DNA of 44,639 bases from an uncultured Rubrobacteraceae bacterium. Its GTDB lineage: Bacteria > Actinomycetota > Rubrobacteria > Rubrobacterales > Rubrobacteraceae. The first letter of the stretch is position 1. The number at the start of each line of letters is the position of its first letter. A program made the position numbers and the translations under genes. The notes under the pieces are model-generated. The model was not told the origin of the DNA. It was given only the letters and a program-made list of their open reading frames with translations, and searched no databases. Location: assembly GCA_902805975.1 (NCBI GenBank), contig CADCUT010000057.1:1-44639 (forward strand), given 5' to 3'. Below are positions 10,850-25,933 of this stretch, in pieces.

Positions 10850-12177
10850 TTGGTCCGGCAGCCAGGAGAACGGTCACGGGGCGGGGGACGGGGGGCGGGC
10901 GTCCGCGCCGCATCCTGGCTGGCCTGGTCGATCGCCGGTCTCTCGCTGGTCTTGTTCGTCGCCGGTACGGCGTTGTACGTCCTCGCCCGGTCCTCGCATG
11001 TCTCCAGCAGAGACATCGGTGGCGTCGGCGAAATGTTGGTCATCGTGCCCTTCCTTGCCTTCCTCATTGTGGGCGCTCTGCTCGCCTCCAGGCGTCCCCG
11101 GAACCCGATAGGTTGGATCCTTTTCTCGCGAACGGGTTCTTGTGGATGCTCATCGTCTTGATCGACTACTACGGTGACTATGGCCTTGCCAACCCCGGTT
11201 CTCTCCCGTTCCCGGTGACGGTCGCCGCGCTGAGCCAATGGTTCTGGGTTCCAACCGTGGGGTTGATCGGGATCTACCTGCTCCTGCTGTTCCCCGACGG
11301 GAGGCTCACTTCGAGGAGATGGCGCCCTCTGGCCTGGCTGTCGGGGTTGATGATCGTGTTGCTCAGCACCGCGGAGGGACTCTACCCGGGACCCTTGCCG
11401 GAACGTGGGGGGGTACGCAACCCGTTCGGGCTCGAGGAGTATCCCTGGATAGTGGATGCGGAGATGGTCATTCTCCCGCTATTGCCCCTATGTATCCTCG
11501 CCTCGGCGGTAAGCCTGGTGTTGCGTTTCCGGCGCTCCGGGGGTGAGGTCCGTGAGCAGATCAAGTGGATAGCCTTCGCCGCCGCGTTCATGGGCCTGTT
11601 GTATCTGGTGAGCATGGGCGCTGGCATGCTCAACGCGTTCATCTCCGCGTCGGAGACCCCGGGTGCCGGAGGCGGGCTACCACTGTGGTTCGATATCCTG
11701 TGGAACGTGGCGGTGCTGAGCTTCGCCGGGGTCCCCGTGGCCGTTGGCTTCGCCGTCTTGAGGTACCGCCTCTACGATATCGAGGTCATCATCAACCGCG
11801 CGCTAGTCTACGGCGCGCTCACCGCTTCGCTGGCGCTCGCGTACCTCTGGAGCGTGGTCTTCCTGCAGAACGTCTTCCGCGCTCTGACCGGTGAAGGCTC
11901 CCAGCTAGCCATAGTCGCCTCGACCCTCGTTATCGCGGCGCTGTTCAACCCCCTGAGACGGCGCATTCAGAATTTTATCGACCGGCGCTTCTACCGCAAG
12001 AAGTACGATGCGAGGAGGACACTCGAAGCCTTCTCCGCCCGGCTGCGCGACGAGATAGACCTTGAAGATTTGACCGGCGAACTGGTGGGAGCGGCGCGGG
12101 GGACGGTGCAGCCGGCGCACGTATCTCTCTGGTTGCGGGGACCGATGTCTCACGAGGGGAGAGGACGAGATGCCTGA
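10850..12177 (+). pseudogene. Polytopic sensor-like membrane protein, paralog 1, frameshifted
   Basis: The reading frame is broken near 11121. The upstream part (TTG 10850, with GAGGAAAG about 10 nt before it) encodes 'SWLAWSIAGLSLVLFVAGTA' to 'RPRNPIGWILF'; the downstream part resumes in the next frame with 'LANGFLWMLIVLIDYYGDYG'. Joined at the CCTTTTCTC run, the product aligns without a gap to paralog 2: both have 28 residues from GWxxx to PGSLP. It then runs through about eight helices to the conserved cytosolic tail YRLYDIEVIINR ... DRRFYRKKYDA ... RLRDEIDLEDL ... VQPAHVSLWLR. A one-base loss, a sequencing error or -1 recoding could explain it. The tail overlaps paralog 2 by 8 bp. This class resembles the input half of membrane histidine kinases without the kinase. 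Confidence 0.7.
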
Positions 12178-13423
12178 TCTCCGCTACTCACGGCTGGCCT
12201 GGGCCCTGTTCGCGCTGGCGCTGCTCATCCTGGCGCTGGGCCTGATCCTCTGGTCGCCGGACACGGGCTTTTACCTCACGTTCGCCCTGATCGCCACGCC
12301 GTTCGCGGTCGTGGGCGTGCTGGTCGCCTCGCGCCGTCCCCGCAACCCGATAGGCTGGCTCTTCCTGGTGTTCGGGGTCGTGGCGGCCTTCACCTCCTTT
12401 GGGGATCGGTACGCCTCCTACGCTCTCGTCGAGCATCCCGGTTCGCTGCCCGGCGGCGACTGGGTGGCGTGGCTGTCGTCGGGGATCTGGCACCCCGCCT
12501 TCGGCTTCTTCGTGTTCGCCTTCCTTCTGTTCCCGAACGGGCGCCTGCCTTCCGCGCGCTGGCGCCCCGTGGCCTGGATCGCCGCTGCGAACTACCTCAT
12601 GGGAGCGGTGCTGGGGCTGCTGTGGGGGCCGCTATTCACGGAGTTCTTCCCGTACGTCGACTTTCCGCTGCGTCTACCGGACTACCCTATCGTGGACGTG
12701 GCTTTCAGCGTCTTTCTCCTCTGCAACTTCGGCCTGATCGCGCTGTCGGCGGGCTCGCTCGTGCTGCGGCTACGCCGGGCCGTGGGGGTCGAGCGCCAGC
12801 AGCTCAAGTGGTTCGTCTACGCCGTCTCGCTGTTCGCGCTCGTCGCCCCGTCGAGCGTCGTTGCCCTTGGGGATGGCAGCGTGATCGTGATCCTGCTGCC
12901 CCTGGTCCCAGCGGCCGCCGGTATCGCCATCTTGCGCCACCGCCTCTACGACATAGACGTGATCATAAACAGGACGCTGGTCTACGGCGTTTTGACCGCG
13001 ACGCTCGTGGCGGTCTACCTCGGGGGCGTGGCGATCACCCAATCTGGTCTCCGCTTTCTGACCGGACAGGAGCAGCAGTCCCAGCTCGCCGTGGTCGCTT
13101 CCACCCTGGTCATAGCCGCGCTGTTCGGCCCCCTGCGCCGGGGAATTCAGGCTCTTATCGACAGGCGTTTCTACAGGCGCAAGTACGACGCCGCGAAGGT
13201 GCTCTCAGAGCTCTCGGCCAAGCTGCGCGACGAGACGGAGCTGGACCGCCTGAACGCGGAGATGCTCTCGGTGGCGCGGGAAACCGTGCAACCTTCCCAT
13301 GTCTCGCTGTGGCTTCGTCCGGCGGCCGGGAGAGAGAGAAGATGTGAGGCGGGGTGCGAGAACTTTACGGGCGGGGGGTTTCGTAACGCTCTTCGTAACG
13401 GCGGGGAGACGGTCGGGCTCTAG
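12170..13423 (+). CDS. Polytopic sensor-like membrane protein, paralog 2
   Basis: 417 residues. The N-terminal half has paired helices with the conserved loop SRRPRNPIGWLF, then FPNGRLPSARWRPVAW, more helices, the loop 'RLRRAVGVERQQLKWFVYA', and the family core HRLYDIDVIINRTLVYG / VASTLVIAALFGPLRRGIQ / DRRFYRRKYDA, ending in RLRDET-like and VQPSHVSLWLRP. No HATPase, GGDEF, PP2C or DNA-binding domain follows. The function is unknown; the layout looks like a sensor input module. The start overlaps paralog 1 by 8 bp. The last 35 residues are atypical and their DNA contains promoter module 2 for the RsbU gene, so the C-terminus may be a read-out extension. Confidence 0.75.
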   Translation: MPDLRYSRLAWALFALALLILALGLILWSPDTGFYLTFALIATPFAVVGVLVASRRPRNPIGWLFLVFGVVAAFTSFGDRYASYALVEHPGSLPGGDWVAWLSSGIWHPAFGFFVFAFLLFPNGRLPSARWRPVAWIAAANYLMGAVLGLLWGPLFTEFFPYVDFPLRLPDYPIVDVAFSVFLLCNFGLIALSAGSLVLRLRRAVGVERQQLKWFVYAVSLFALVAPSSVVALGDGSVIVILLPLVPAAAGIAILRHRLYDIDVIINRTLVYGVLTATLVAVYLGGVAITQSGLRFLTGQEQQSQLAVVASTLVIAALFGPLRRGIQALIDRRFYRRKYDAAKVLSELSAKLRDETELDRLNAEMLSVARETVQPSHVSLWLRPAAGRERRCEAGCENFTGGGFRNALRNGGETVGL

Positions 13424-13426
13424 GAT
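13382..13426 (+). promoter_or_regulatory. Tandem CGTAACG promoter module 2
   Basis: CGTAACG at 13382-13388 and 13394-13400 (12-bp period, spacer CTCTT), then 20 nt, then TAGGAT (13421-13426) as -10. It is embedded in the 3' end of paralog 2 and would start a short leader just before rsbU, whose AAGGAGG lies at 13434-13440. Confidence 0.65.
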
Positions 13427-13444
13427 GACGGGCAAGGAGGCAGG

Positions 13445-14614
13445 ATGACGGCACAGACAAAGCACAAGACGAGGTTCTGGCAGGATCTGTTCAGGCGCAA
13501 CGGGCGCGAGACGCCCGAGGAGACACCCGCGGTCGTCGACGTGCCGCGGCAGGCCGCGCCCGAGCTCGACATCGCGCCGAACGACCCGATCCTGGCCTAC
13601 CTCGTCGGCGTCTCCGGGGTGGTGGAGGTGGAGAAGCTCGACCTCGATTCCCCGGCCTTGGGGCAGATGAGGAAGGCCGGCGTCAAGCTGCTGGTGCCGC
13701 TCGTGAGCCAGGGGGAGCTTATAGGGCTCCTCAACCTCGGTCCGCGGCTCTCCCAGCAGGAGTACTCCGCCGACGACAGGAAGCTGCTCTCGGATCTCGC
13801 CACCCAGACGGCCCCGGCCGTGAGGGTCGCCCAGCTCGTCCGCCAGCAGCAGCAGGAGGCCAAGGAGCGCGAGCGCATCGCGCAGGAACTTAGAGTTGCG
13901 AGCCTGATCCAACAGACCCTCCTGCCCAAAGCCCTCCCCGAGCTCCCGGGCTACGAGGTGGCGGCCTACTACCAGCCGGCCCGCGAGGTCGGCGGCGACT
14001 TCTACGACTTCATGACCCTCGAAGACGGACGACTCGGGCTCGTAGTCGGCGACGTGACGGACAAAGGGGTCCCGGCTGCCCTCGTCATGGCGACGACCCG
14101 CACGATGCTCCGCGCCGCCGCCCAGCGCCTGCTCTCCCCCGGGGAAGTCCTCCGGCGCGTGAACGACGTGCTGGTACAGGACATACCGCCCAACATGTTC
14201 GTAACGTGCCTGTACGCGATCCTGGACCCAGATACCGGTCGCCTCGTCTACGCCAACGCCGGCCACGACCTGCCGTACAGGCGGCGGGCCGGGCGCGGGG
14301 GCGTGGCCGACGAGCTCAGGGCGCGGGGGATGCCGCTCGGCCTGATGCCGGGGATGGGCTACGAGGAGAAGGAGATGGTGCTCGAGAGGGGAGAGAGCGT
14401 CCTGTTCTACAGCGACGGGCTCGTCGAGGCCCACGACCGGCGGCGCGAGATGTTCGGCTTCCCCAGGCTGCAGGGGCTCGTAGGCGCCCACCGCTCGGGC
14501 GGCTCCTCCCTCATAAGCTTCCTCCTCTCCGAGCTCGCGCGCTTTACGGGCGAGGGCTGGGAGCAGGAGGACGACATCACGCTGGTGACCCTGGACCGTC
14601 CGGAGGAGACGTGA
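13445..14614 (+). CDS. rsbU: RsbU-type PP2C/SpoIIE serine phosphatase with GAF-like N-terminus
   Basis: 389 residues. Residues about 44-135 form a GAF-like sensor domain ('VKLLVPLVSQGELIGLLNLG', 'YSADDRKLLSDLATQ'), 135-160 a coiled linker (QQQQEAKERERIAQEL), and 165-386 a SpoIIE/PP2C phosphatase. Metal-binding aspartates sit in GGDFYDF (about 185), VVGDVTDKG (about 203), YSDGLVE (about 323) and QEDDITLV (about 376). In partner switching it dephosphorylates the STAS antagonist, which then captures the RsbW kinase and frees a sigma factor. AAGGAGG precedes the ATG. It overlaps rsbW by 4 bp (GTGA) and starts the rsbU-W-V-V operon. The ligand of the GAF-like domain is unknown. Confidence 0.9.
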   Translation: MTAQTKHKTRFWQDLFRRNGRETPEETPAVVDVPRQAAPELDIAPNDPILAYLVGVSGVVEVEKLDLDSPALGQMRKAGVKLLVPLVSQGELIGLLNLGPRLSQQEYSADDRKLLSDLATQTAPAVRVAQLVRQQQQEAKERERIAQELRVASLIQQTLLPKALPELPGYEVAAYYQPAREVGGDFYDFMTLEDGRLGLVVGDVTDKGVPAALVMATTRTMLRAAAQRLLSPGEVLRRVNDVLVQDIPPNMFVTCLYAILDPDTGRLVYANAGHDLPYRRRAGRGGVADELRARGMPLGLMPGMGYEEKEMVLERGESVLFYSDGLVEAHDRRREMFGFPRLQGLVGAHRSGGSSLISFLLSELARFTGEGWEQEDDITLVTLDRPEET

Positions 14615-15090
14615 GCGCCCCCACAAACGGGTTCCGACGGACGCTCGCCGAGCTTAGCGTGCCGAGCGAGCCGGGCAACGAGCGCCGGGCGATGGAGGAG
14701 GTCGCTGGCACCGTGGGGGGGCTCGGGCTGCCGGAGAGGACCATGGAGCGGCTCAAGACCGCCGTGGCCGAGGCGACCATGAACGCGATGGAGCACGGCA
14801 ATCACTACAGGCGGGAGGCCCCCGTCCTCATAGAGGTTACGGCCACAGAGGCCGAGCTCTCCGTCAAGATCACCGACGAGGGGACCGGACCCGCCGCCTT
14901 CGACCCCGAGACGCCGGACCTCGAGGCCAAGCTCGAAGGCGCGCAGACGCCCCGCGGCTGGGGGCTCTTCCTCATAAAGAGCATGGTGGACGACATGAAC
15001 GTGACCGGCGACGAGCGCCACCACACGGTGGAGCTGATCCTGCACCTGGACGGGAGGGAGGAGGAGAACGATGGCCGTAAAGCACTTTGA
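14611..15090 (+). CDS. rsbW: RsbW-type anti-sigma factor / serine kinase
   Basis: 159 residues with the GHKL ATPase fold: the N-box 'AVAEATMNAMEHGN' (about 51-64), the G1-box 'ITDEGTGPAAFDP' and the G2-like RGWGLFLIKSMVDDM. Such proteins bind a sigma factor or phosphorylate STAS antagonists. The frame is open upstream inside rsbU, but the GTG at 14611 overlaps the rsbU stop in GTGA and gives the usual length. Its 3' end overlaps the first STAS gene by 20 bp. No sigma-factor gene is present in the window, so its target is encoded elsewhere or is not a sigma factor. Confidence 0.9.
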   Translation: MSAPTNGFRRTLAELSVPSEPGNERRAMEEVAGTVGGLGLPERTMERLKTAVAEATMNAMEHGNHYRREAPVLIEVTATEAELSVKITDEGTGPAAFDPETPDLEAKLEGAQTPRGWGLFLIKSMVDDMNVTGDERHHTVELILHLDGREEENDGRKAL

Positions 15091-15427
15091 GGCGGAGGTA
15101 CGCCGGGAGCCCAAGGGGGCCGTGCTCGACCTTAGGGGCGAGATCAACGGCTTCGCACAAGGTACCCTCGATGCCGCCTACGCCGAGGCCGAGAAGGAGA
15201 ACCCGGGGGCGATCCTCCTCAACTTTGAGGGCGTGGACTACATCAACTCGACGGGTATCGCCCTGATCGTGGGCCTCCTAGCCAGGGCGCGCGCCACCAA
15301 GCGCGACCTCTCGGCCTACGGTCTCAGCGAGCACTACGTCGAGATCTTCAACATCACCCGCCTCTCGGACTTTATGGGCGTCTTCCCCGACGAGGAGAGC
15401 GCCCTGTACGGGACGGTGGTGAAGTGA
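15071..15427 (+). CDS. rsbV: STAS-domain anti-anti-sigma factor (RsbV-like) 1
   Basis: 118 residues, one STAS domain. The phosphorylatable serine is Ser60 in INSTGIAL, in the loop before the second helix. The rest ('AVLDLRGEINGFAQGTL', 'SAYGLSEHYVEIFNITRLSDFMGVFP') matches antagonists regulated by RsbW-type kinases. Its ATG lies inside rsbW, indicating tight coupling of kinase and antagonist dosage. The following STAS gene is a close paralog, so the module has two antagonists. Confidence 0.9.
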   Translation: MAVKHFEAEVRREPKGAVLDLRGEINGFAQGTLDAAYAEAEKENPGAILLNFEGVDYINSTGIALIVGLLARARATKRDLSAYGLSEHYVEIFNITRLSDFMGVFPDEESALYGTVVK

Positions 15428-15528
15428 GCGGCGCGGCGCACGGCGGGGAGGGGCTGCACGCGTCTCTTCAGTCCCTGCGCGGCGAGTACGAGGGCGTCAG
15501 GGAGTTAGAACGGAAAAGGAGGAACGAC

Positions 15529-15888
15529 ATGCCGCAGGCACAGGTAACGATGGACGTGCGCAGGGTCGAGGGGAACGTGAGCGTCATCGACGTCAAGGGC
15601 GAGCTGACCGCGTTCGCCGAGGGCGTCCTGATGGACGCCTACAACCAGGCCAGCGACGGGAGGGTCCGCGCCATCGTCCTTAACTTCGAGGGCTTGGAGT
15701 ACATGAACAGTTCCGGCATAGGCCTGCTGGTCACGCTGCTCATCCGGGTCAACCGCGAGAAACAGAAACTCCTGACCTACGGCCTCTCCGAGCACTACAG
15801 GAGCATCTTCCAGATCACACGCCTCGACGACGCCATAGGCATCCACGACTCCGAAGAGGAGGCCGTACGGGCCGCGAACGCCGCGTAG
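15529..15888 (+). CDS. STAS-domain anti-anti-sigma factor (RsbV-like) 2
   Basis: 119 residues from the ATG at 15529, which has a strong AAAGGAGG site eight bases before it. Candidate phospho-serines are Ser61/Ser62 in MNSSGIGLLV. It is close to the first antagonist over 'YGLSEHYxxIFxITRLDD'. Upstream, a GTG at 15424 overlaps the previous stop in a GTGA pattern and would add 35 residues predicted to be helical and charged. Both starts look usable, so two forms are possible. Two antagonists could let one kinase integrate two phosphatase inputs. Confidence 0.85.
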   Translation: MPQAQVTMDVRRVEGNVSVIDVKGELTAFAEGVLMDAYNQASDGRVRAIVLNFEGLEYMNSSGIGLLVTLLIRVNREKQKLLTYGLSEHYRSIFQITRLDDAIGIHDSEEEAVRAANAA

Positions 15889-15911
15889 GGCTGGAAGAGG
15901 ACGGCACCACC

Positions 15912-16154
15912 ATGACCGCCAACCGAACGCCGGCACAATGGGCGCTGACGGTAGCGCTGGTGCTGGTGTACGTCGCCACCGTCGTGGTGTCGCAGGCGAC
16001 GTTCCGTATCTTTACGGGACAGAGATCGCAGCTTGCCGTCGTCGCCTCCACGCTGGTTGCGGCAGCCCTGCTCAGTCCTCCCTGGCGGCGGATCCAGCGG
16101 TTTATCGACCGCCGGTTTTATCTGCGCAACCTACCGAGAGAGAGCCCACGATGA
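15912..16154 (+). CDS. Short membrane protein: C-terminal fragment of the sensor-like family
   Basis: 80 residues: one hydrophobic helix (ALTVALVLVYVATVVVSQATF), then 'RSQLAVVASTLVAAALLS' and RRIQRFIDRRFYLR. These match the last helices and juxtamembrane tail of the sensor-like paralogs; the N-terminal helices and the tail after FYxRKYD are absent. The ATG has a moderate GAAGAGGA site. Its stop overlaps the next ATG (ATGA, 16151-16154), which suggests it is translated and coupled and not simply debris. It may be a degraded copy whose coupling survives, or a minimal anchor. Confidence 0.5.
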   Translation: MTANRTPAQWALTVALVLVYVATVVVSQATFRIFTGQRSQLAVVASTLVAAALLSPPWRRIQRFIDRRFYLRNLPRESPR

Positions 16155-16858
16155 CCGGGCAACCCCGCGATGCTGCCCACTGGGCGCGCTACACCGAGAC
16201 GTTGGAGGTGGCCGGCCTGCGAAAGGGGGCGGGCACCCGCAACGTCGAGGGACGCCGCCCCGTGAGCCCGCTACAGGGCTTCGGCAAGATGTGGCAGAAG
16301 ACCTTCAAGGTGCGACTGGAGGGTGTCGGCGCCTCGCCCGTCGAGGTCGTCGGGGCCTGGCGCGAGCATTTCCCCGAGATCTCCGGTTTCGGAGAGGGTT
16401 TTCGGGTGCCCTCGGGGGGCCTGGTGCCCGGCGCGGTCGCGCTGCTCGCTGGTGGCCTCACCGGCGTGATGGTGCTCTACGCGGACGAGGAGTCCTTTAC
16501 CTACATGACGCCCGAGGGGCATCCTTTCTCGGGTTGGATCACCTTTTCCGCCTACCGGGACGAGGACGGCACGACGGTGGCCCAGGCCCAATTCCTCATC
16601 CGCGCCAACGACCCAGTCTACGAGCTGATGATGCTCGTTGGAATGAACGGGGCCGAGAACCTGCAGTGGCAGGGCACCCTGCGGAACCTGGCGGCGCACT
16701 TCGGGGCCCGCGGGAGGGTGGAGACGAAGGTGGTCTGCGTGGACCCCGGGCGACGGTGGCGCCACTACAAGAACCTCCGCCACAACGTCCTGATCCGCTC
16801 GATGCTCCACGCCTTGATCGCGCCGCTGCGGTGGCTGCGTCCTCGCTCCACAGGCTAA
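16151..16858 (+). CDS. Conserved protein of unknown function, pair member 1 (SRPBCC/DUF1990-like pattern)
   Basis: 235 residues, no signal peptide. Recognisable blocks: GRRPVSPLQGFGKMWQKTF, LYADEESFTYMTPEGHPFSGW, 'RANDPVYELMMLVG' and a CVDPGRRW ending. The 'TPEGHPxSGWxTFSAY' block recalls the 'LPGHPExGEE' region of DUF1990/SRPBCC-fold proteins, which bind hydrophobic ligands; this is resemblance, not a firm assignment. The ATG overlaps the stop of the membrane fragment. It is homologous to the next gene along its whole length (tandem duplication). It lies between the Rsb operon and an FAD oxidoreductase, so it may handle a lipid-like substrate. Confidence 0.65.
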   Translation: MTGQPRDAAHWARYTETLEVAGLRKGAGTRNVEGRRPVSPLQGFGKMWQKTFKVRLEGVGASPVEVVGAWREHFPEISGFGEGFRVPSGGLVPGAVALLAGGLTGVMVLYADEESFTYMTPEGHPFSGWITFSAYRDEDGTTVAQAQFLIRANDPVYELMMLVGMNGAENLQWQGTLRNLAAHFGARGRVETKVVCVDPGRRWRHYKNLRHNVLIRSMLHALIAPLRWLRPRSTG

Positions 16859-16883
16859 CGCGCAAAAGAGAAGGGAGAAGACC

Positions 16884-17633
16884 ATGACGGAATCAATCCC
16901 ACCGAAGGACGAGAAGCAGCCCCGCGACGCCGCGTTCTGGGCGCAGAGGGTGGAGAGGCTCGAGGTCTCGGACGTGCCGGACGGGGCCTCCAACGTGAAC
17001 GTGCACGGAAGGCGGGAGGTCGGGGCGCTGCAGGGTTTCGGGCAGCTCTGGCAGAAGACCTACAGGGTACGCCTGGCCGGCGTCGAGGTGACGCCCGGGG
17101 AGACCGTGCGGGTCTGGAAAGAGCGTTTCCCAGAGCTCCAACCGCAGAACAGCCGGTTCTACCCCTCGATGGCGGGCGTGGCACCGGGCGAGGTCCTGTT
17201 CATAAGCGCGACCGTCGGCGGTATGCCCGTCCACACGGGGGTGCGCGTGATCTACGCCGACGACGAGTCTTTTACGGTGATGACCCCGGAAGGCCATCCC
17301 GAGTCGGGCTGGAACACCTTCTCGGCGCACGCCGACGAAGACGGCACGACGGTGGCCCAGATCCAATCCCTCGCCCGCGCCAACGACCCGATCTACGAGA
17401 TCGGCTTCCGCGTGGTCGGCGCCACGGAGCAGGAGCGTCTCTGGATGCACGTCCTGAAGTCGCTCTCGGCCAACTTCGGGGTGAACGAGCCGGTGAGCCT
17501 GGAGAAGACCTGCGTCGACCCGAAGGTCCAGTGGTCGCAGATACGCAACGTCTGGCACAACGCGGGCGCCCGGTCGATGGTCTACACGATGATGGCGCCG
17601 TTGCGCTGGCGGCGCGCCCGGTCGCGAAGGTGA
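16884..17633 (+). CDS. Conserved protein of unknown function, pair member 2
   Basis: 249 residues, a paralog of the preceding gene: GALQGFGQLWQKTYRVRL, 'IYADDESFTVMTPEGHPESGW', 'ARANDPIYEIGFRVVG', CVDPKVQWSQIRNVWHNAG. It opens with the same PRDAAFWAQRVERLEV pattern as its neighbour (PRDAAHWARYTETLEV). A GAAGGGAGAAG site precedes the ATG. The conserved acidic and aromatic positions shared by the pair suggest a common ligand pocket. Both copies end with an arginine-rich tail after APLRW, perhaps for membrane or nucleic-acid contact. No catalytic motif recognised. Confidence 0.65.
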   Translation: MTESIPPKDEKQPRDAAFWAQRVERLEVSDVPDGASNVNVHGRREVGALQGFGQLWQKTYRVRLAGVEVTPGETVRVWKERFPELQPQNSRFYPSMAGVAPGEVLFISATVGGMPVHTGVRVIYADDESFTVMTPEGHPESGWNTFSAHADEDGTTVAQIQSLARANDPIYEIGFRVVGATEQERLWMHVLKSLSANFGVNEPVSLEKTCVDPKVQWSQIRNVWHNAGARSMVYTMMAPLRWRRARSRR

Positions 17634-17666
17634 ACGAATCGGCGGCGGGGGGAGACCTCATACCGG

Positions 17667-17680
17667 TAGAATCGAAGCCG
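17667..17680 (+). promoter_or_regulatory. -10 box and probable leaderless start of the FAD oxidoreductase
   Basis: TAGAAT (17667-17672) is followed after seven bases by GTG (17680), the same geometry as at msrB. There is no Shine-Dalgarno sequence, so a leaderless transcript starting at the GTG is likely. Confidence 0.5.
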
Positions 17681-19107
17681 TGAGCGGGAGCACCTACGAC
17701 GCTGTGGTGGTCGGCGCCGGGCCAAACGGCCTCGCCGCCGCCGTCGAGCTTGCCCGGCGGGGCCGTTCGGTGGCCGTGTTCGAGGCCGAAGACAGGGTCG
17801 GCGGGGGGACGAGCTCCGCCGAGATCACGCTTCCGGGCTTCGTCCACGACCTCGGATCTGCCATACACCCTCTGGGTTACGCCTCGCCGTTCTTCGCCGC
17901 CCTTCCCCTCGAAGAGCACGGCCTGGAGTGGATCCACCCTCCCGCACCCCTCGCCCATCCCTTCGACGACGGCACGGCCGCCGTCCTCGAACGCTCGACT
18001 GAGGCGACGGGCGCCACCCTAGGACCCGACGCCGAAGCCTACCGGAAGCTGATCGATCCTCTCTCCGAGGACGCGCGGCGCATCCAGGCGACGCTCTCAG
18101 GCTCCACGCGCCTGCCCCGGCATCCCCTCGCCCTGACGTCCGCCGGCCTGCGCTCTCTAGGCTCCGCCAGGGGGTTCGCGGAGGCCGCGTTCAGGGGCGA
18201 GAGGGCCCGCGCGCTCTTCGCCGGCAACGCCGCCCACTCGTTCCTATCGCTCGAGAAACGGCCGAGCGCCCTCTTCGGGGTGGTCCTCGGGACGCTCGGA
18301 CACGCCTTCGGCTGGCCGCTGCCCAAAGGCGGGTCCCAGAGCATAGCCGACGCCCTCGCCTCGTACCTGATCTCCCTGGGGGGCGAGGTCTTCACGGGCG
18401 TCAGGATCGGCTCGGTGGACGAGGTGCCACGGACCCGTACGGTCCTCTTCGACGTAACGCCGCGCCAGCTCCTCGACATCGCGGGCGTGCACTTTACCGA
18501 GCGCTACAGGGGCGCCCTCAAGCGCTACCGCTACGGCCCCGGCGTCTTCAAGGTGGACTTAGCACTCGACGGGCCGATCCCGTGGAGCGCCGGGGAGTGC
18601 CTGCGGGCCGGGACCGTCCACCTCGGCGGCACGCTGGAGGAGATCTCCGCCGGCGAGGCCGCCGTCGCGCGCGGGGAGCACCCGGAGAGGCCGTTTATCC
18701 TGCTCGCCCAGCAGAGCCTCTTCGACCCCACGCGCGCGCCCGAGGGCAAGCATACCGTCTGGGCCTACTGCCACGTCCCGAACGGGTCGACCTTCGACAT
18801 GACGGAGAGGATAGAGGCCCAGATAGAGCGCTTCGCCCCGGGTTTCAGGGATCGCATCCTCGCCCGGAGCGCCTGGGGACCGGCGGACCTCGAAGGGTGG
18901 AACGCCAACCTGGTCGGGGGTGACATAAACGGCGGGTACATGGACGTGCGCCAGCTCTTTGCCAGGCCGATGATACGGGCGAACCCGTACTCGACCTCCG
19001 CGCCCGGACTCTACCTGTGCTCGTCCTCGACCCCGCCCGGAGGCGCCGTACACGGCCTGTGCGGGTTCATGGCCGCCCGCTCCGCGCTGCGCTACCTGAA
19101 GATGTAG
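17680..19107 (+). CDS. Phytoene-desaturase-like FAD-dependent oxidoreductase
   Basis: 475 residues. The N-terminal dinucleotide fold is clear: [20 protein letters not shown] with a Glu ([11 protein letters not shown]) after the second strand. The C-terminal '[22 protein letters not shown]' is the FAD-contacting tail of the CrtI/COG1233 amine-oxidase-like group. Members desaturate carotenoids or oxidise other isoprenoid and amine substrates; this one is not close enough by eye to CrtI to assign phytoene. No crtB or crtE is next to it. It follows the unknown-function pair, and begins 46 bp after it with its own -10. Confidence 0.85.
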
Positions 19108-19354
19108 GGCTGGATGAAGGCTGTGACGGGCGTCGGCAACCAGGAGAGACCGGGCTCCCCGGTTAAAGGCCGGCTCGCCGCATCGCTCGTCCGGCCGCTC
19201 GATGGGCGCTCCGTGGCCGTGTTCTTCGCGGACGTCGCGGTTGCCCCGGCTTCGTCGTTCATCGGGGGCGCGGGGCTCTTCGGAGATCCTCTGAGGAACG
19301 AGCTGGCCGGCGCGGTGCGAAACCCGGTGCGGCCGGCCCACGGCAAGGAGAGCG
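19108..19354. other. Gap with a doubtful 82-residue frame
   Basis: An ATG frame at 19114-19362 overlaps the next gene start by 8 bp. Its product (RSVAVFFADVAVAPASSFIGG in the middle) resembles nothing recognisable, has no ribosome site, and has equally open frames on the other strand. It is probably leader sequence of paralog 3. Confidence 0.3.
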
Positions 19355-20521
19355 ATGAGTGATCGCTCCCTGACCCGGCTGGCGTGGTCGCTGTGCGGGC
19401 TGTCGCTGGGCTTGATAGCCTGCGCCATCGTGCTGGCCGTACTCGACGGCGCCGATGCCCAGACGGTCAGCCTGCTCCTGGCTCCGACGGCGAGCGCGCT
19501 GGTCGGCGGCCTGGTGGCCTCTCGACGTCCCGGGAACGCCGTCGGCTGGTTCTTCCTCGGCGCCGCCGCTTGTTTCGCCTCCACGGGGGTTGCGGCCGAG
19601 TACGTCGCGCTCGGGTTGGCGGGAGGATGGGTGATGGCCTGGCTTTTGAGCTGGCTGTGGTTGCCGAGCATTATGCTCCTGCTGTGCTTCGTGCCCCTCT
19701 ACTTCCCTGACGGGCGACTCGTCTCGCGGCGCTGGCGGTGGCTCGTGCGGTTCGCCCTCGCCTTCTCCGTGGGCACGGCGGCATTCTCCGCGCTGAAGCC
19801 GGGCGAGATACAAGAGGAGGGCGTCGTCAACCCGCTCGGGATCGAGGCGCTGCGACCGTTCCTCGATCTTCTCGAGGCGTTCGTGTTCGGGCCGTACATT
19901 GTTCTGCTGTTCGCCGCGGCGGTGAGCCTCGTGGTGCGCTTCAGGCGCTCGGGGAGTGTGGAGCGTCAGCAGATCAAGTGGCTAGCGCTGGCCGCCGTCG
20001 CGATCCCCGTGTGGTTCCTGACCAACGCCCCGGTCCAGGCTGCGGCCCCCGACCTGTTCCTGGTGCTCGATACTTTCGTCTTCTCCTTCCTGATCCCGCT
20101 CGCCGCCGGTATCGCCATCCTGAGATACCGGCTCTACGATATAGACGTCATCATAAACCGGACCCTCGTCTACGCCGCGCTCACCGTCGCGCTGGCGCTG
20201 GTCTACTTCGGTAGCGTCGTCGGTTTGCAGTACGTTTTCCGGGCATTGGGCGGGGGAGAATCTTCCCTGGCGATCGTCGCTTCGACGCTCGTCATCGCGG
20301 CTCTGTTCGGACCCTTGAGGCGTCGCATCCAAGCTTTTATAGACCGCGCCTTCTACCGAAAGAAGTACGACGCGAAGGAGACGCTTTCGGGCTTCGGCTC
20401 CAGGTTGCGCGACGAGACCGACCTGGACCGTTTGGGGGATGACCTCGTGACGGTGGTGCGTGAGACGGTGCAGCCGGAGTACGCTTCCCTCTGGTTGCAG
20501 ACACCGGAGGGGACGCGGTGA
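19355..20521 (+). CDS. Polytopic sensor-like membrane protein, paralog 3
   Basis: 388 residues. N-terminal helices start with LTRLAWSLCGLSLGL; then SRRPGNAVGWFFL, FPDGRLVSRRWRW, FRRSGSVERQQIKW, and the core YRLYDIDVIINRTLVYA / VASTLVIAALFGPLRRRIQ / DRAFYRKKYDAKETL, followed by RLRDETDLDRLGDDL and VQPEYASLWLQ. The tail ends there, with no output domain. One arginine of the usual DRRFY is Ala. It overlaps paralog 4 by 4 bp (GTGA), so the two are made together and could form a heteromer. Confidence 0.75.
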   Translation: MSDRSLTRLAWSLCGLSLGLIACAIVLAVLDGADAQTVSLLLAPTASALVGGLVASRRPGNAVGWFFLGAAACFASTGVAAEYVALGLAGGWVMAWLLSWLWLPSIMLLLCFVPLYFPDGRLVSRRWRWLVRFALAFSVGTAAFSALKPGEIQEEGVVNPLGIEALRPFLDLLEAFVFGPYIVLLFAAAVSLVVRFRRSGSVERQQIKWLALAAVAIPVWFLTNAPVQAAAPDLFLVLDTFVFSFLIPLAAGIAILRYRLYDIDVIINRTLVYAALTVALALVYFGSVVGLQYVFRALGGGESSLAIVASTLVIAALFGPLRRRIQAFIDRAFYRKKYDAKETLSGFGSRLRDETDLDRLGDDLVTVVRETVQPEYASLWLQTPEGTR

Positions 20522-21747
20522 GGGATCGGCGCGCGTCCCTCCTGCTCGCGTGGTCGCTCTGGGCGGTGTCGGCCGCCCTGCTGGCGCTCGGGGTCTTGTT
20601 CTCGGTCCTGACCCGCTCGACGCCCGACCCGAACGCGTTTGGGGTGACCTTCGATGCGCTCCTCTCGCTCGCCCTGCTCTCGTTCCCGACCGTCGGCGCG
20701 CTCGTGGTCTCGCGCCATCCCGGTAACACGATCGGCTGGCTGTTTTGCACGGTGGGTGTCTCTTTCGGCCTCACGAGCGGCGCCTACGGCTGGGCTGTCT
20801 ATGCCCTTTTTGCCCGGCCGGGAGCTCTGCCCGGCGCCGAGTTGGCGGCCTGGTTCGCCACCTGGACTTTCCTGCCGGCCCTTTTCTGCATCCCCGTGTA
20901 TCTGTTCCTCCTCTTCCCCGACGGACGCCCCGTGTCCCGGCGCTGGCGGCCGGTCGCGTGGCTGGCCGGCGTAGGGCTGCTCGCGACGACCCTGGGCAAC
21001 GCGCTCTCGCCCGGCCGGCTCGCCCAATCTCCCTTCGAGTCGGTGGAGAACCCGGCCGGGATCGGGGCGATCGGCGGGCGGATGGATGCCGTCGTCGGGT
21101 TCGGTTTCTGGCTGACGCTGGCGAGCATCCTCCTGGCCGGGGTCTCCCTCGTCTACCGCTTCCGCCGGGCCCGGGGATCTGAGCGCCAGCAGCTCAAGTG
21201 GTTCGCGGGTTCCGCCGTCGTCTTCGCCGCCACCACCGTCGCATACACGGCCCTGCCCAACATCCCCGAGCAGGCCGGGCAGATCGCCACCCTCTTCGCC
21301 TTCGCCGGCATTCCCGTAGCCGTCGGGGTCGCCATCCTGCGCCACCGCCTCTACGATATCGATCTTCTCATCAACCGCACCCTGGTCTACGCTGTTCTCA
21401 CCGCGGCGCTCGCGCTCGTATATTTCGGCGGCGTGGCCTCCTTGCAGCTCATCCTCCGCATGCTCACCGGCGGCGGGTCGCAACTCGCGGTTGTCGTGTC
21501 CACGCTCGCCATCGCGGCGCTGTTCAACCCCCTGAGACGGCGGGTGCAGTCGTTGGTCGACCGGCGCTTCTACCGCAGAAAGTACGACGCAGGGAGGGTT
21601 CTGGCCGACTTCTCCAAGACGTTGCGCGACCAGACGGACCTTGGCAGACTCGATGAGGACCTGATCTCGACGATCCGGCAGACGGTGCAACCGGAGCACG
21701 TCACGCTGTGGCTGCGGCCCCGGGACGCCTCGGAAGGAGACCTTTGA
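20518..21747 (+). CDS. Polytopic sensor-like membrane protein, paralog 4
   Basis: 409 residues from a GTG overlapping the previous stop. It keeps every family block: SRHPGNTIGWLF, FPDGRPVSRRWRPVAW, 'RRARGSERQQLKWFAG', HRLYDIDLLINRTLVYA, VSTLAIAALFNPLRRRVQ, DRRFYRRKYDAGRVL, LRDQTDLGRLDEDL, VQPEHVTLWLRP. About eight hydrophobic helices are visible. A cytochrome P450 gene follows after 129 bp with its own ribosome site. No kinase or cyclase domain follows the tail. Confidence 0.75.
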   Translation: MRDRRASLLLAWSLWAVSAALLALGVLFSVLTRSTPDPNAFGVTFDALLSLALLSFPTVGALVVSRHPGNTIGWLFCTVGVSFGLTSGAYGWAVYALFARPGALPGAELAAWFATWTFLPALFCIPVYLFLLFPDGRPVSRRWRPVAWLAGVGLLATTLGNALSPGRLAQSPFESVENPAGIGAIGGRMDAVVGFGFWLTLASILLAGVSLVYRFRRARGSERQQLKWFAGSAVVFAATTVAYTALPNIPEQAGQIATLFAFAGIPVAVGVAILRHRLYDIDLLINRTLVYAVLTAALALVYFGGVASLQLILRMLTGGGSQLAVVVSTLAIAALFNPLRRRVQSLVDRRFYRRKYDAGRVLADFSKTLRDQTDLGRLDEDLISTIRQTVQPEHVTLWLRPRDASEGDL

Positions 21748-21876
21748 GCGGGCGGGTATGGACAGGGTAGTGGGCAAGGGACCGGACGGCGTTCGGTCCT
21801 ACGCCCGGCTGCGCCGGCGTCGGCTAACCGTCTAGAAGGCGCCGGGAAGCGGTCCGCAGATCGGAGGAGGAGAGCC

Positions 21877-23256
21877 ATGAGCGCGACGACCAGCAGAGGC
21901 CGGAGGTCCACCCCCGAGGGGACGCCGGGGCCGCGGGGGAACCCGGTCCTCGGCAGCATGCGCGACTTCCAGCGCGACAAGCTCGGCTTTATCCGGGGCC
22001 TGACGCGCTACGGAGACGTCGCCCGCTACCGCACGGCCCACCTGACCTGGTACCAGATCAACCACCCGGAAGGCATCAGGCGCGTTCTGCAGGAGAACAA
22101 CCGCAACTACGGCAAGGGGGCCCTCACCCTAGGCTTCTTCAAGCCGGTGGTGGGGGAGGGTTTGATCACCAGCGAGGGCGCCCTGTGGCTCCGGCAGCGG
22201 CGGCTGATCCAACCCATCTTCCACAGGAAGAGCGTGGCCTCCTTCGGCTCCCTGATGACGGAGGAGACCCTCGCCATGCTGGAGCGCTGGGGGCCGGCGA
22301 TCGAGGCCGGAGAACCCGTCGACGTCCCGGCGGAGATGGCGCGCCTCACGCTGGATATAGTTACCGGAGCCCTCTTTCACGCCCACGTCGGCGAGGAGCC
22401 CGAGGTCATCGGACGGGCGATAAACACGATCGTCGAGGACCTCGGGTTCCGCTTCGAAGTCCCCTTCTACCCGCCGCACCGCGTCCCCACCCCGCGCAAC
22501 CGGCGCTTAAGGGCCGCGATGCGCACCGTGGACCGGGCGGTGTACGCGATCATCGCCGGGCGCCGCGACGGGGGAGACGAGGAAGACCTGCTGGCGCTCC
22601 TGATGGGGACCCGCGACGAGGAGACCGGCGAGGCCATGGGCGACAGGCAACTGCGCGACGAGGTCATGACCCTGTTCCTCGCCGGCCACGAGACCACGGC
22701 CAACGCGCTCTCGTGGGCGCTGTACCTGATCTCCACCCACCCCGACGCAGAGAGGCGCCTGCGCGAGGAGCTAGACGAGGTTCTCGGCGCGGACCGGAGG
22801 ATACCGACGATAGGCGACCTGCCGAAACTGGCGTACACGAAGATGGTCGTCGACGAGACTTTGAGGCTCTACCCGCCGGCCTGGATCACCAACCGCCAGG
22901 CCGTCGCCGAGGACGAGATCCTCGGCCACCGTATCCCGGCCGGATCCTTCGTGAGCCTCAGCCCCTACGTCCTCCATCGTCACCCGGACTTCTGGGATGA
23001 CCCGGACGCCTTCGACCCCGAACGGTTCGCCCCGGGCCAGGGCAACGGGCGCCCGCGCTTCGCCTACTTCCCTTTCGGCGGCGGCCCGCGCCAGTGCATC
23101 GGACAGAGCATGGCCCTCGTCGAAGCCCAGCTCGTGCTGGCGACGGTCCTCGGCCGCTGCCGGCTCCGGCCGACATCTGACCAACCCGCCGAGGCAGAGG
23201 CCCTGGCCACGCTCAGGCCCCGGGGTGGCCTTCCGATGGCCGTCGAGCCCGCGTGA
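21877..23256 (+). CDS. Cytochrome P450
   Basis: 459 residues, soluble type (no N-terminal anchor). The I-helix oxygen-activation motif AGHETT is at residues 269-274, the K-helix ExxR at 327-330 (ETLR), FDPERF near 382, and the heme-ligating Cys407 in FPFGGGPRQCIG. The sequence style ('FHRKSVASFGSLMTEET', 'NRQAVAEDEILGHRIPAG') is that of the CYP4/CYP102-like bacterial group that hydroxylates fatty acids or terpenoids; the substrate cannot be read. GGAGGAGGAG lies just before the ATG. No ferredoxin or ferredoxin reductase is adjacent, although a flavoprotein disulfide-type reductase lies 1.2 kb downstream. Confidence 0.92.
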   Translation: MSATTSRGRRSTPEGTPGPRGNPVLGSMRDFQRDKLGFIRGLTRYGDVARYRTAHLTWYQINHPEGIRRVLQENNRNYGKGALTLGFFKPVVGEGLITSEGALWLRQRRLIQPIFHRKSVASFGSLMTEETLAMLERWGPAIEAGEPVDVPAEMARLTLDIVTGALFHAHVGEEPEVIGRAINTIVEDLGFRFEVPFYPPHRVPTPRNRRLRAAMRTVDRAVYAIIAGRRDGGDEEDLLALLMGTRDEETGEAMGDRQLRDEVMTLFLAGHETTANALSWALYLISTHPDAERRLREELDEVLGADRRIPTIGDLPKLAYTKMVVDETLRLYPPAWITNRQAVAEDEILGHRIPAGSFVSLSPYVLHRHPDFWDDPDAFDPERFAPGQGNGRPRFAYFPFGGGPRQCIGQSMALVEAQLVLATVLGRCRLRPTSDQPAEAEALATLRPRGGLPMAVEPA

Positions 23257-23292
23257 GGTGGACCCGCCTCCTCGGGAGGGAGGTGGAGCGGC

Positions 23293-24483
23293 ATGATCGG
23301 CGGACGTGACGACGCAAGGCCGGCGACCGGACGCGAAAGGTTGGCGCCCGTGGCGGGGGTCGCTCTGCTCTCCCTGACGATCGTGCTCGTCGCCGTCGGG
23401 GTCGTGTTGCTCTTCTTCGGAGGTGGCTTCGGCCGAATCGTGTGGGGCCTGCCGGGCGTGCCGGGTTTGTGGGCTTTGGGGTTCTCTTTGGCCGGGTACC
23501 CGATCACACGCCGCCACCCGGCCAACCCCGTGGGATGGTGCCTGATGGTCGCGGGCGTAACGGCCGGGGTGAACCTCCTGGGCCTGGTCTCCGCCGACCC
23601 CGAGGGTCCGGCGCTGTTGCTCGTGAGCGCCTGGGCGATCTCGGTGGGTGCGCTGAGTAGCGCGGTGGTTCTCTTCCCCTCCGGCTCGCCGCCGTCGCGG
23701 TGGTGGTGGGCGCAACTGCTCTTGCTGTGGGGTTGCGGTCTCCTCGTGTACTTCTCGAACCCGTTCGAGGAGGCGGGCGGGTTTATCGGGCCGCTGGGGT
23801 GGCTGGACCCGCTCGCCGTACCGGTGGGCATCGTCTTTCAACTCTCGCTGGCCGCGGGGTTCTTCTCGCTCGTGGTTCGCTGGCGCCGCTCCGGAGCGGT
23901 GGAGCGGCTGCAGCTCAAGTGGGTGGTGTACGGCGTCCTCCTGGTCGGGACGACGGCGCTGATCGCCGAGACGGCCATCCCCAACCTCGCCCCCGGCTGG
24001 CATCTGCCGGCGACGGTCGCGCTCAGCATCGTCATCCTCGCCGTTCCGGTAACGATGGGGGTGGCGATGCTCCGCTACCGCCTCTACGACATAGACCTCG
24101 TCATCAACCGCACCCTCGTCTACGGCGCCCTGACGGTGACGCTGGCGCTGGTGTACCTGGCGGTCGTCGTATCGATGCAATACGCCTTCCGCGTCGTGAC
24201 CGGCGAAGGCTCCCAACTCGTGATCGTCGCCTCCACGCTGGGCATCGCCGCGCTGTTCAACCCCCTCCGGCGTCGCATACAAGGCTTTGTTGACCGGCTC
24301 TTCTACCGAAGGAGGTACGATGCGGCGAAAACCCTGGGAAACTTTAGCGCCAGATTGCGGGATGAGACGGACCTTGATGCGCTGGCCGACGATCTGGTGA
24401 CGGTGGTTCGGCAGACGATGCAGCCGGAGCGCGTGTCGTTGTGGTTGCGGCGCTCGAAGGATGGAGGAAAACCTGGTGGTTGA
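23293..24483 (+). CDS. Polytopic sensor-like membrane protein, paralog 5
   Basis: 396 residues, the most divergent N-terminus of the set (a longer hydrophilic lead, then LTIVLVAVGVVLLFFGGGF). Family blocks: TRRHPANPVGWCL, 'FPSGSPPSRWWWAQ', WRRSGAVERLQLKW, YRLYDIDLVINRTLVYG, VASTLGIAALFNPLRRRIQ, DRLFYRRRYDAAKTL, RLRDETDLDALADDL, MQPERVSLWLRR. The ATG follows a GGGAGGGAGGTGG run. Its end overlaps the next oxidoreductase by 23 bp, so the sensor-like protein and the flavoenzyme are translationally linked. Confidence 0.75.
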   Translation: MIGGRDDARPATGRERLAPVAGVALLSLTIVLVAVGVVLLFFGGGFGRIVWGLPGVPGLWALGFSLAGYPITRRHPANPVGWCLMVAGVTAGVNLLGLVSADPEGPALLLVSAWAISVGALSSAVVLFPSGSPPSRWWWAQLLLLWGCGLLVYFSNPFEEAGGFIGPLGWLDPLAVPVGIVFQLSLAAGFFSLVVRWRRSGAVERLQLKWVVYGVLLVGTTALIAETAIPNLAPGWHLPATVALSIVILAVPVTMGVAMLRYRLYDIDLVINRTLVYGALTVTLALVYLAVVVSMQYAFRVVTGEGSQLVIVASTLGIAALFNPLRRRIQGFVDRLFYRRRYDAAKTLGNFSARLRDETDLDALADDLVTVVRQTMQPERVSLWLRRSKDGGKPGG

Positions 24484-25933
24484 TGGCCTTGAAATCGTCG
24501 TGGTTGGGGGCGGGCCGGCGGGTGTCACCGCGGCCCTGCGGGCGCGGGAGCTCGGGGCCTCGGTCGCCCTGGTCGAGCGCGGGAACATGGGTGGGACCTG
24601 CACCAACGACGGCTGCGTCCCGACCCGCGTGCTCGCCCACGCCGCCCGACTCGCGCGCGACGCCGAACAGTTCGCCGACTACGGTCTGATCGGTGAAGCC
24701 CCCCGCGTGGACTTCGCCCGGCTCCTCAACCGCACCCAGCGCATCGTCTACGAGGTCCAGGAGAAAAAGCAACTCCGGTCCCGCCTCGAAACAGCGGGCG
24801 TGCGGGTCTTCGACCGCGCGGGCGAGGCCAGATTTACCGACCCGCACACGCTCGCACTGGACGGCGCGGAGTTGCGCGGCGAGAAGTTCGTCCTCTGCGC
24901 CGGCGGGCACGCGCGCCGGATGGGGTTCCCCGGCAGCGAACACGCCCTTACCCACAGCGACGTCTGGACGATGAAGGGCCTGCCCTCCTCGGTCGTCGTG
25001 GTGGGTGCCGCGGCGACGGGCTGCCAGCTCGCCTCGGTCTTCGCGGCGTTCGGCTCCCGGGTTCGGCTGCTCGACGTCGCGCCGCGCATCCTGGGCGGGG
25101 AGGACGAGGCCGTCTCCCGCGGGATGGCCCGGGCTTTCGGCCGGCGCGGGATCGAGCTGCTCACCGGCATCGGCGGCGTCGAACGCATCGAGAAAGAGGG
25201 CGGGGGACTTCGTCTCTTCTACACGCACGAGAACGAGACCCGCGCCCTGGAAACGGAGGCCGTTGTGCTGGCGGTGGGCTGGCCTGGCAACGTGGGGTCG
25301 CTGAACCTCGACGCCGCTGGCGTGCGAACGGAGCGCGGCTACGTGACGGTGGACGACGCGCTCCGGACGAGCGCCCCGCACGTCTTCGCGGCCGGGGATC
25401 TCACGGGGCGCATGATGCTGGTCCAGAGCGCGACCTACGAGGGCGCTCTCGCCGCCGAGAACGCCGCGCTCGGTGACGGGCGCGGCTACCGGCACGCCAT
25501 CGTGCCGCACGGCGGCTTCACCGACCCGGAGTACGCCGGCGTGGGCCTCACGGAGCGCCAGGCCCGCGACGAGGCCGGGGACGCGGACTGCGCCGTGGCG
25601 GTCGTGCCCTACGCGGACCTCGACCGGGGTGTGATCGACGGCCGCCCGGAGGGCTCTTGCAAGCTCGTCGTCTCCCGCTCCTCGCGCCGCGTCCTCGGCG
25701 CCCACATCGTCGGCGAGCAGGCCGTCGAGGTCGTCCAGCTAGCTGCCGCGGCCATGCGCGCCGGCATGCCGGTCGAGCAGCTCGCCGACCTGGAGCTCGC
25801 ATATCCGACCTTCACGGCCGTAGTCGGCCTCGCCGCCCGCCAGATCGTCCGCGACCTGGACTCCGCTTCGCAAAGCCCACGAGGCTCCGGGCGTTCGGCT
25901 GCGGCGGAGTGGGAGCACAGCGAACTCGGTTAG
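24461..25933 (+). CDS. Mercuric-reductase-like pyridine nucleotide-disulfide oxidoreductase
   Basis: 490 residues. FAD-binding VVGGGPAGVTAALRAREL near residue 12-29, the redox-active Cys47/Cys52 pair in GGTCTNDGCVPTR, the NAD(P) fold 'VVVVGAAATGCQLASVF' near 177, the second FAD motif VFAAGDLTGRMMLV near 308, and a C-terminal dimer domain ending AYPTFTAVVGLAAR. 'AYPTFT' is characteristic of mercuric-reductase-like members; dihydrolipoamide dehydrogenase has HxHPT instead. There is no N-terminal mercury-binding domain and no C-terminal CC pair, so the substrate is probably not mercury. Start overlaps paralog 5. The last 30 residues are polar and unlike the family. Confidence 0.85.
   Translation: MEENLVVDGLEIVVVGGGPAGVTAALRARELGASVALVERGNMGGTCTNDGCVPTRVLAHAARLARDAEQFADYGLIGEAPRVDFARLLNRTQRIVYEVQEKKQLRSRLETAGVRVFDRAGEARFTDPHTLALDGAELRGEKFVLCAGGHARRMGFPGSEHALTHSDVWTMKGLPSSVVVVGAAATGCQLASVFAAFGSRVRLLDVAPRILGGEDEAVSRGMARAFGRRGIELLTGIGGVERIEKEGGGLRLFYTHENETRALETEAVVLAVGWPGNVGSLNLDAAGVRTERGYVTVDDALRTSAPHVFAAGDLTGRMMLVQSATYEGALAAENAALGDGRGYRHAIVPHGGFTDPEYAGVGLTERQARDEAGDADCAVAVVPYADLDRGVIDGRPEGSCKLVVSRSSRRVLGAHIVGEQAVEVVQLAAAAMRAGMPVEQLADLELAYPTFTAVVGLAARQIVRDLDSASQSPRGSGRSAAAEWEHSELG

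Follow-up and report, generated by a model that had tools for sequence, protein, structure and literature searches.

Receptor arrays around a single RsbU-type phosphatase in Rubrobacteraceae: a candidate GAF domain split between membrane proteins and a partner-switching enzyme

Membrane sensing by phosphatases of the PP2C class is known from SiaA and similar membrane-anchored fusions, which are single chains. For the phosphatases of partner-switching systems, one study of Bacillus RsbU (PMC12143880) has partner binding order a linker, with dimerization and activation of the phosphatase as the outcome; it argues that linkers of this kind mediate the action of GAF, PAS, and other modules, and raises the question of how sensory modules come to be exchanged. 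In the Bacillus stressosome (PMC9765535), one RsbU is fed by several paralogous sensors that differ in input and share an output part. Here we analyze a stretch of 44,639 nucleotides (the window; contig CADCUT010000057.1, our C57) from the draft genome of an uncultured Rubrobacteraceae bacterium (3.53 Mb, 238 contigs, 82% complete), in which paralogous polytopic membrane receptors surround an rsbU-rsbW-rsbV-rsbV operon. The receptors are not simply devoid of an output domain: each breaks off within a GAF domain, after its helix 1 and strand 1, and the remainder of such a domain stands on RsbU. Our best reading, which we consider probable, is a partner-switching system with one phosphatase, many receptors, and a GAF domain split between the two. 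It draws on a common cut site, complementary GAF pieces, natural fusions, co-occurrence, a conserved locus, and a composite fold.

Between 10.9 and 25.9 kb, the receptors, the partner-switching operon, and the associated enzyme genes lie without exception on the plus strand. The receptor and partner-switching features are these (aa, amino acids; ORF, open reading frame):

10907..11167, plus strand: N-terminal part of receptor p1, in a different frame from the remainder and with one in-frame TGA
11113..12177, plus strand: receptor p1 ORF (354 aa), without the first membrane helices; its tail ends in QPAHVSLWLR plus 12 aa
12170..13423, plus strand: receptor p2 (417 aa), immediately 5' of rsbU
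13241..13315, plus strand: GAF helix 1 and strand 1 of p2 (residues 358-382, ending in QPSHVSLWL)
13421..13423, plus strand: TAG stop between p2 and rsbU, which share one frame
13445..14614, plus strand: rsbU (389 aa), GAF remainder and SpoIIE/PP2C phosphatase, with AAGGAGG just 5' of the ATG
13577..13834, plus strand: GAF remainder of RsbU (about residues 45-130), followed by a long helix into the phosphatase
14024..14599, plus strand: SpoIIE/PP2C domain (RsbU residues 194-385; Pfam E 2e-53)
14611..15090, plus strand: rsbW-like anti-sigma kinase (HATPase_c_2)
15071..15427, plus strand: rsbV-like STAS protein 1, with NSTG serine motif, named by its similarity to rsbV2
15424..15888, plus strand: rsbV-like STAS protein 2, with NSSG serine motif; start uncertain
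15912..16154, plus strand: receptor remnant of 80 aa, which spans just the middle of the tail
19355..20521, plus strand: receptor p3 (388 aa)
20518..21747, plus strand: receptor p4 (409 aa)
23293..24483, plus strand: receptor p5 (396 aa)

The original prediction, made from the letters of this DNA, had seen five full-length paralogs and a fragment, with shared blocks resembling the input half of a membrane histidine kinase and ending without an output domain. The fragment is indeed a remnant and four paralogs (p2-p5) are intact, but p1 is frame-disrupted, its N-terminus lying in another frame and carrying a TGA. The blocks themselves stand: regular expressions recover STLxIAALF, DRxFYR, and QPxxxSLWL from all five ORFs and alignment recovers the RLYDI block, while the tails within the window are 63-68% identical to that of p2. 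As predicted, a Pfam scan found no kinase, HATPase, or other output domain above cut-off in the five receptors; what the prediction overlooked is the cut GAF domain with its remainder on RsbU, which gives the coupling a concrete form. HisKA_7TM (PF16927) is matched by p3 alone, at 21.7 bits against a gathering score of 28.6, and PrsK (TIGR02916) matches all five paralogs weakly. The likeness to kinase input halves is borne out by 17 long kinase-like relatives that share the tail, 16 of which carry HATPase_c, with HisKA_3 in 15 and HisKA in one (Pfam). The same genome encodes such a kinase on contig C10 (stretch L007), where a receptor-type input half is followed by HisKA_3 and HATPase_c in a 773-aa frame. 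A profile search of this genome also retrieved three partial receptor matches at or near contig ends (C24, C120, and C76) and an additional lone receptor on contig C210, which was absent from the query rows and matches at E = 1.5e-136, so that chance likeness is excluded. Both the C210 receptor (L006, 3561-2987 region) and the C10 kinase (L007, 742-1419) have repeat proteins of a GGxGxDxL-like pattern nearby. A sequence search of the PDB with the receptor profile gave no match, and a plasmid search gave two kinases only.

The place where the receptors stop is constant. We gathered 236 distinct tails from the fetched loci, after excluding identical copies and matches not spanning about model positions 30-40 to 115-118: 209 are lone, 17 belong to the long kinase-like proteins, seven to long proteins with PP2C, and three are open at the end of a stretch. 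These stretches were chosen for their receptor or RsbU matches, so 209 of 236 should not be read as an unbiased share of lone receptors; nevertheless, the relatives gathered are not mostly full kinases, the outcome that the original prediction had named as its own undoing. Every one of the 209 lone tails stops within 40 residues beyond the tail, and in an earlier set of 174 distinct tails all 150 scoring at least 140 bits end within 40 residues (median, 11), the profile having been built from lone receptors and hence giving fused relatives lower scores by construction. The long relatives, the kinase of the same genome included, continue past this point. Pairwise identity among 67 lone receptors averages 32% for the membrane part and 62% each for its final two helices and for the putative plug (long helix, GAF helix 1, and strand 1); D331, Y335, R336, Y339, P375, and W381 are invariant in all 67. 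A constant plug beneath a variable membrane part is the pattern expected of parallel sensors. A tree of the tail alone (84 rows, 129 columns, short search) needs at least five changes among the lone, kinase, and phosphatase labels, against 22 in shuffles; with 36 of its 81 inner branches unresolved, it does not decide on a single origin of the split.

The complementary piece is carried by RsbU. Its phosphatase domain, at 182 bits in Pfam and with the GDFYD, GDVTDKG, NAGH, SDGL, and DDITL motifs, is of the SpoIIE/PP2C type. Taken alone, the RsbU of the window is matched by Pfam GAF models only from profile position 49, 79, or 91, and its relative in L027 only from position 43, 50, or 85, the starts compared with the fusions below being 79 and 43; RsbU has no complete sensory domain of its own, which is not a defining requirement of the family. 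In natural phosphatase fusions, PF01590 is covered over positions 1-133 (L117 and L114 above cut-off, L111 below it), and in the kinase L057 Pfam GAF is covered over 2-132. When p2 and RsbU are read through as one chain, PF01590 extends over 4-132 of 133 positions at 31.0 bits (cut-off, 22.4), compared with 25.2 for RsbU alone. A profile of the GAF remainder, built from seven RsbU N-termini, finds this piece behind the tail on one chain in all seven phosphatase fusions, with 5-46 residues between, and in 15 of the 17 kinase-like relatives, with 1-60 residues between. In the fusions L111 and L117 the junction itself is legible: the tail end (YSVSLWTR/IR) is followed some 17-20 residues on by an ADDDP/GDDP segment, which is the opening segment of the RsbU GAF remainder. 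In many relatives (L024, L025, L027, L028, L093-L097, and others) the RsbU frame is about 540-590 aa long with no separate rsbW behind it, which suggests that these frames carry a fused C-terminal RsbW domain. Other Rubrobacter PP2C phosphatases (L033-L037 and L039) have different N-termini, SnoaL-like by eye; they gave no GAF-remainder match and were left out of the GAF counts.

Two AlphaFold2 models, in which p2 and RsbU were entered as a single chain with the TAG read as Q, predict the composite of receptor tail and RsbU remainder as a confident GAF fold. The short model (p2 tail plus the GAF part of RsbU; 261 residues, 123 rows) has a mean predicted local distance difference test (pLDDT) score of 79.8, with block means of 92-95 for helix 34-49 and strand 54-58 (VSLWL; 95 for the strand block), 93-97 for RsbU from residue 141 (last block, 87), and 44-66, mostly below 60, for the linker 61-140. 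Strand assignment by DSSP requires a partner, and in this model VSLWL could pair only within RsbU, where every other strand of at least two residues lies. The 814-residue model of p2 plus RsbU, whose alignment has strand 1 in register in 73 of the 74 rows reaching it, has a mean pLDDT of 84.7 and again builds the strand (378-382), with the VSLWL block at 93 and the GAF remainder at 89-96. Here helix 305-352 leaves the membrane part, which would comprise about ten hydrophobic helices in p2; helix 358-373 follows, and helix 534-584 joins the GAF domain to the phosphatase. The N-terminal stretch of RsbU is a low-confidence helix in both models. Foldseek matched the short model to GAF proteins, with target template modeling scores among GAF-sized chains of 0.54-0.69 for matches of about 230-250 columns and 0.28-0.47 for those of 84-107 columns; the folds closest to the 814-residue model are the PP2C domains of Rv1364c, RssB, SiaA, and SpoIIE.

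The two pieces also travel together. In the genome tables, all figures are counts among the matches listed, and lone status follows from open-frame length, verified for the fetched loci only. Within the class of the source organism (39 genomes, all of one family), a strong GAF remainder occurs once each in 10 genomes, all of them among the 16 with strong receptor tails (Fisher 1.3e-5; this and the following Fisher values overstate the association because the co-occurring genomes are related by descent, which tells against our reading). Across 396 genomes of Actinomycetota, the RsbU GAF remainder is found in 30 (22 genera, 6 families), and receptors, defined by a tail at E 1e-30 or better and present in 39 genomes, accompany it in 30 of 30 cases compared with 9 of 366 others (Fisher 2e-37); outside the family of the source organism, the counts are 20 of 20 and 3 of 337. 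Among 301 genomes of a second phylum (that of G040), which we infer to be Chloroflexota, unfused RsbU occurs in 20, lone-type receptors in 21, and both in 19, that is, in 19 of 20 RsbU genomes compared with 2 of 281 others (Fisher 7e-27). The 30 of 30 and 19 of 20 uphold the link to RsbU drawn in the original prediction. Genomes with a fused phosphatase only (G309, G240, and G144) have no tail at the cut-off used. Most RsbU genomes have a single RsbU match (28 of 30 in Actinomycetota), and at E 1e-10 the tail is matched 36 times in G023, 21 times in G022, and 20 times in G017, counting kinases and partial genes; tandem arrays comprise 13 receptors in G044, 11-12 beside RsbU in G040, and 8 or more in G023.

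Both phyla show the locus order [receptors]-rsbU(W)VV-DUF1990-CrtO-[receptors], with receptor arrays before RsbU, after CrtO, or on both sides. A tail lies on the same strand within 276 bases upstream of 24 of the 44 unfused RsbU genes that have at least 300 bases upstream. In 26 mapped stretches, the genes behind unfused RsbU include RsbV-like ones in 24, DUF1990-like ones in 21, and CrtO-like ones in 18, several of the maps that lack them ending at contig ends; three fused-phosphatase stretches are without RsbV-like, DUF1990-like, CrtO-like, P450, and flavoenzyme genes. Because the locus order is kept across two phyla, the DUF1990/CrtO cassette is likely, on the evidence of gene order, to be part of the output of the system. 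The other features of this part of the window are as follows (FAD, flavin adenine dinucleotide):

16151..16858, plus strand: DUF1990-like protein a, 51% identical to b, with a sub-cut-off Pfam match on the longer ORF 15938-16858
16884..17633, plus strand: DUF1990-like protein b (Pfam E 3e-9)
17680..19107, plus strand: CrtO-like FAD protein; best NCBIfam model BCarotKetCrtO, 102 bits, far under its cut-off of 1000
21877..23256, plus strand: cytochrome P450
24461..25933, plus strand: Pyr_redox flavoenzyme; best NCBIfam model MerA, under its cut-off
26451..26840, plus strand: small ORF that recurs at the P450/flavoenzyme end of the locus
26851..30051, minus strand: large regulator, BTAD/AAA as judged by eye

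The small ORF neighbors the flavoenzyme/P450 end in four further stretches (L127, L128, L122, and L136). Relatives of the large regulator stand, mostly divergently, at the same edge of the locus in Rubrobacteraceae and Chloroflexota maps, and it may control the receptor array. On the other side, a fumarate hydratase gene (9732-10571, minus strand) reads away from the receptors and has counterparts at this position in L127, L131, L132, and L019. Rfam and tRNA scans of the window gave no match.

Several other explanations of the locus have to be weighed. The original prediction held that each receptor is followed by a different gene and could act, on a putative lipid or redox signal, through adjacent enzymes. 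Indeed, p2 precedes rsbU, p4 precedes the P450 gene, p5 overlaps the flavoenzyme gene, and the remnant overlaps the first DUF1990-like gene, but p1 overlaps receptor p2 and p3 overlaps receptor p4. Signaling to the P450, the flavoenzyme, or the CrtO-like protein could appeal to 4 P450 and 5 flavoenzyme genes among 31 distinct same-strand downstream neighbors, and to CrtO-like genes in 18 of the 26 maps. However, what most often comes next downstream of a receptor is a further receptor (in 95 of 192 cases, a count of receptor genes that includes fragments and overlapping stretches; RsbU comes next in 7), arrays of up to 13 receptors run without such enzymes in between, and the piece complementary to the tail is on RsbU only. 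P450 and flavoenzyme genes do lie behind receptors in several Rubrobacteraceae stretches (in L029 a flavoenzyme homolog precedes the receptor); as they recur mostly within one conserved locus, they are read better as co-members or regulon genes than as direct effectors. In the form given, this part of the prediction is not supported, and we consider it very improbable. That the lone receptors are functionless, decayed histidine kinases might be suggested by the remnant and the disrupted copy in the window, but all 209 lone tails end at one place and the plug residues are invariant across two phyla; a conserved cut site is not expected of decay, and we reject this possibility, giving it practically no credence. 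Nor do we accept that receptor and phosphatase are naturally made as a single chain by stop read-through or frameshifting. The idea comes readily from p2 and rsbU, which share one frame with a single TAG and seven codons between them, yet in-frame pairs make up 8 of 24 adjacent ones, the chance value, and rsbU has its own AAGGAGG site, on which two grounds we reject it; besides, most receptors do not adjoin RsbU, and the explanation is extremely improbable.

It is also conceivable, if unlikely, that the lone receptors use another soluble partner, with RsbU completing its GAF domain by itself (e.g., through a FWQDLFRR-like N-terminal segment) and merely sharing the locus. No receptor stands just upstream of 20 of the 44 unfused RsbU genes, 9 of the 39 Actinomycetota genomes with receptors have no RsbU, and one MAFFT alignment set FWQDLFRR against the receptor strand. 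On the other hand, both AlphaFold2 models use VSLWL and not the RsbU N-terminus as the strand, the receptor strand is GAF strand 1 in the fusions, and RsbU is not found where receptors are absent, G283 excepted. The 20 RsbU genes without an adjacent receptor and the nine genomes without RsbU also weigh against the split-GAF system that we favor, as do several further observations. The nine genomes are G002, G007, G008, G017, G021, G030, G361, G508, and G561, of which G021 is 100% complete; in the second phylum, G207 and G290 have receptors without RsbU, and G283 has RsbU without receptors at the cut-off used. The p2 tail alone matched no Pfam family, and the kinase-like proteins L007 and L090 gave no GAF-remainder match with the RsbU profile, although L007 still has Pfam GAF matches over the C-terminal part of the model. 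Folding as a single chain forces p2 and RsbU into proximity, so that the models are proxies and not a complex, and the alignment of the 814-residue model included natural fusions. The MAFFT alignment in question is that of the short model, in which strand 1 of most rows was set against FWQDLFRR; despite this, the model built the strand from VSLWL. Finally, the Foldseek matches that apparently span both pieces have root mean square deviations of 9-16 Å and come with no aligned ranges.

Phosphatase, anti-sigma kinase, and STAS antagonists with serine motifs occur together here, which marks the module as one of partner switching; their order is kept in other genomes, and the operon sits amid the receptors as first described. 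Two different RsbV-like proteins in succession (15071-15427 and 15424-15888) form a pair that is kept in nearly all maps. One SigB/F/G sigma factor scores above cut-off in the genome, on contig C122, outside the window. Under the split-GAF reading, each receptor would consist of a variable membrane part and the common plug, and its tail would dock into the open GAF domain of RsbU, completing the domain and bringing RsbU to the membrane. A stimulus would move the receptor helix, and the movement would reach the phosphatase by way of the composite GAF domain and its long exit helix. Active RsbU would then dephosphorylate both RsbV proteins, which would capture RsbW and free a sigma factor. Inferred elements of this scheme are cellular binding and dimerization, whether the effect is on or off, what the signals are, and which sigma factor is the target. 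The long helix from GAF to PP2C would fit, by analogy, the linker-controlled activation demonstrated for Bacillus RsbU. With several to dozens of receptors carrying the same plug for one RsbU, the system would be a hub with many inputs and one output. With some hesitation we favor a broader view, in which dozens of membrane receptors per cell compete with a shared plug for the GAF socket of one PP2C phosphatase, an arrangement kept in two phyla with a DUF1990/CrtO-like output cassette and forming a membrane counterpart of the stressosome.

Partner switching, the PP2C phosphatase, and the kinase-type membrane input are all of known kinds. What appears to be new, judging from the sequences, is a sensory domain divided between many receptors and one phosphatase; at this level the arrangement is conserved, unusual, and well supported, and we found no description of it in the open-access literature, which is weak evidence of absence. 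If true, it offers a simple plug-and-socket route from a membrane receptor to a partner-switching phosphatase, would allow receptors to be added by duplication without extra phosphatases, and would account for the orphan, "kinase-less" membrane proteins that Actinomycetota and Chloroflexota carry by the hundreds. Compared with kinases of the HisKA_7TM/PrsK type (PF16927, TIGR02916), the receptors share the membrane input half and the tail, but have no kinase domain and a GAF domain cut after strand 1. Fusions of the SiaA type are likewise instances of membrane sensing by PP2C, whereas here many receptors face one soluble phosphatase. With Bacillus RsbU and RsbP (PMC12143880), the locus shares a SpoIIE-family PP2C domain, a long helix from the sensory domain, and adjacent RsbW and RsbV; in contrast to them, its sensory GAF domain is incomplete, with the first strand on separate membrane proteins. 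The RsbQ/RsbP module (PMC3183031) is similar in that a separate protein completes sensing by a PP2C phosphatase, but the RsbQ hydrolase acts on a whole PAS domain, whereas here the partner holds part of the domain itself. No RsbT or RsbS was noticed in the window, no search aimed at RsbR, RsbS, or RsbT having been made. Set beside the RsbR paralogs of the stressosome (PMC9765535), the locus has the paralogous sensors, variable input, common output, and one RsbU in common, while membrane receptors, predicted to bind RsbU through a split domain, take the place of the soluble STAS proteins and the RsbT kinase.

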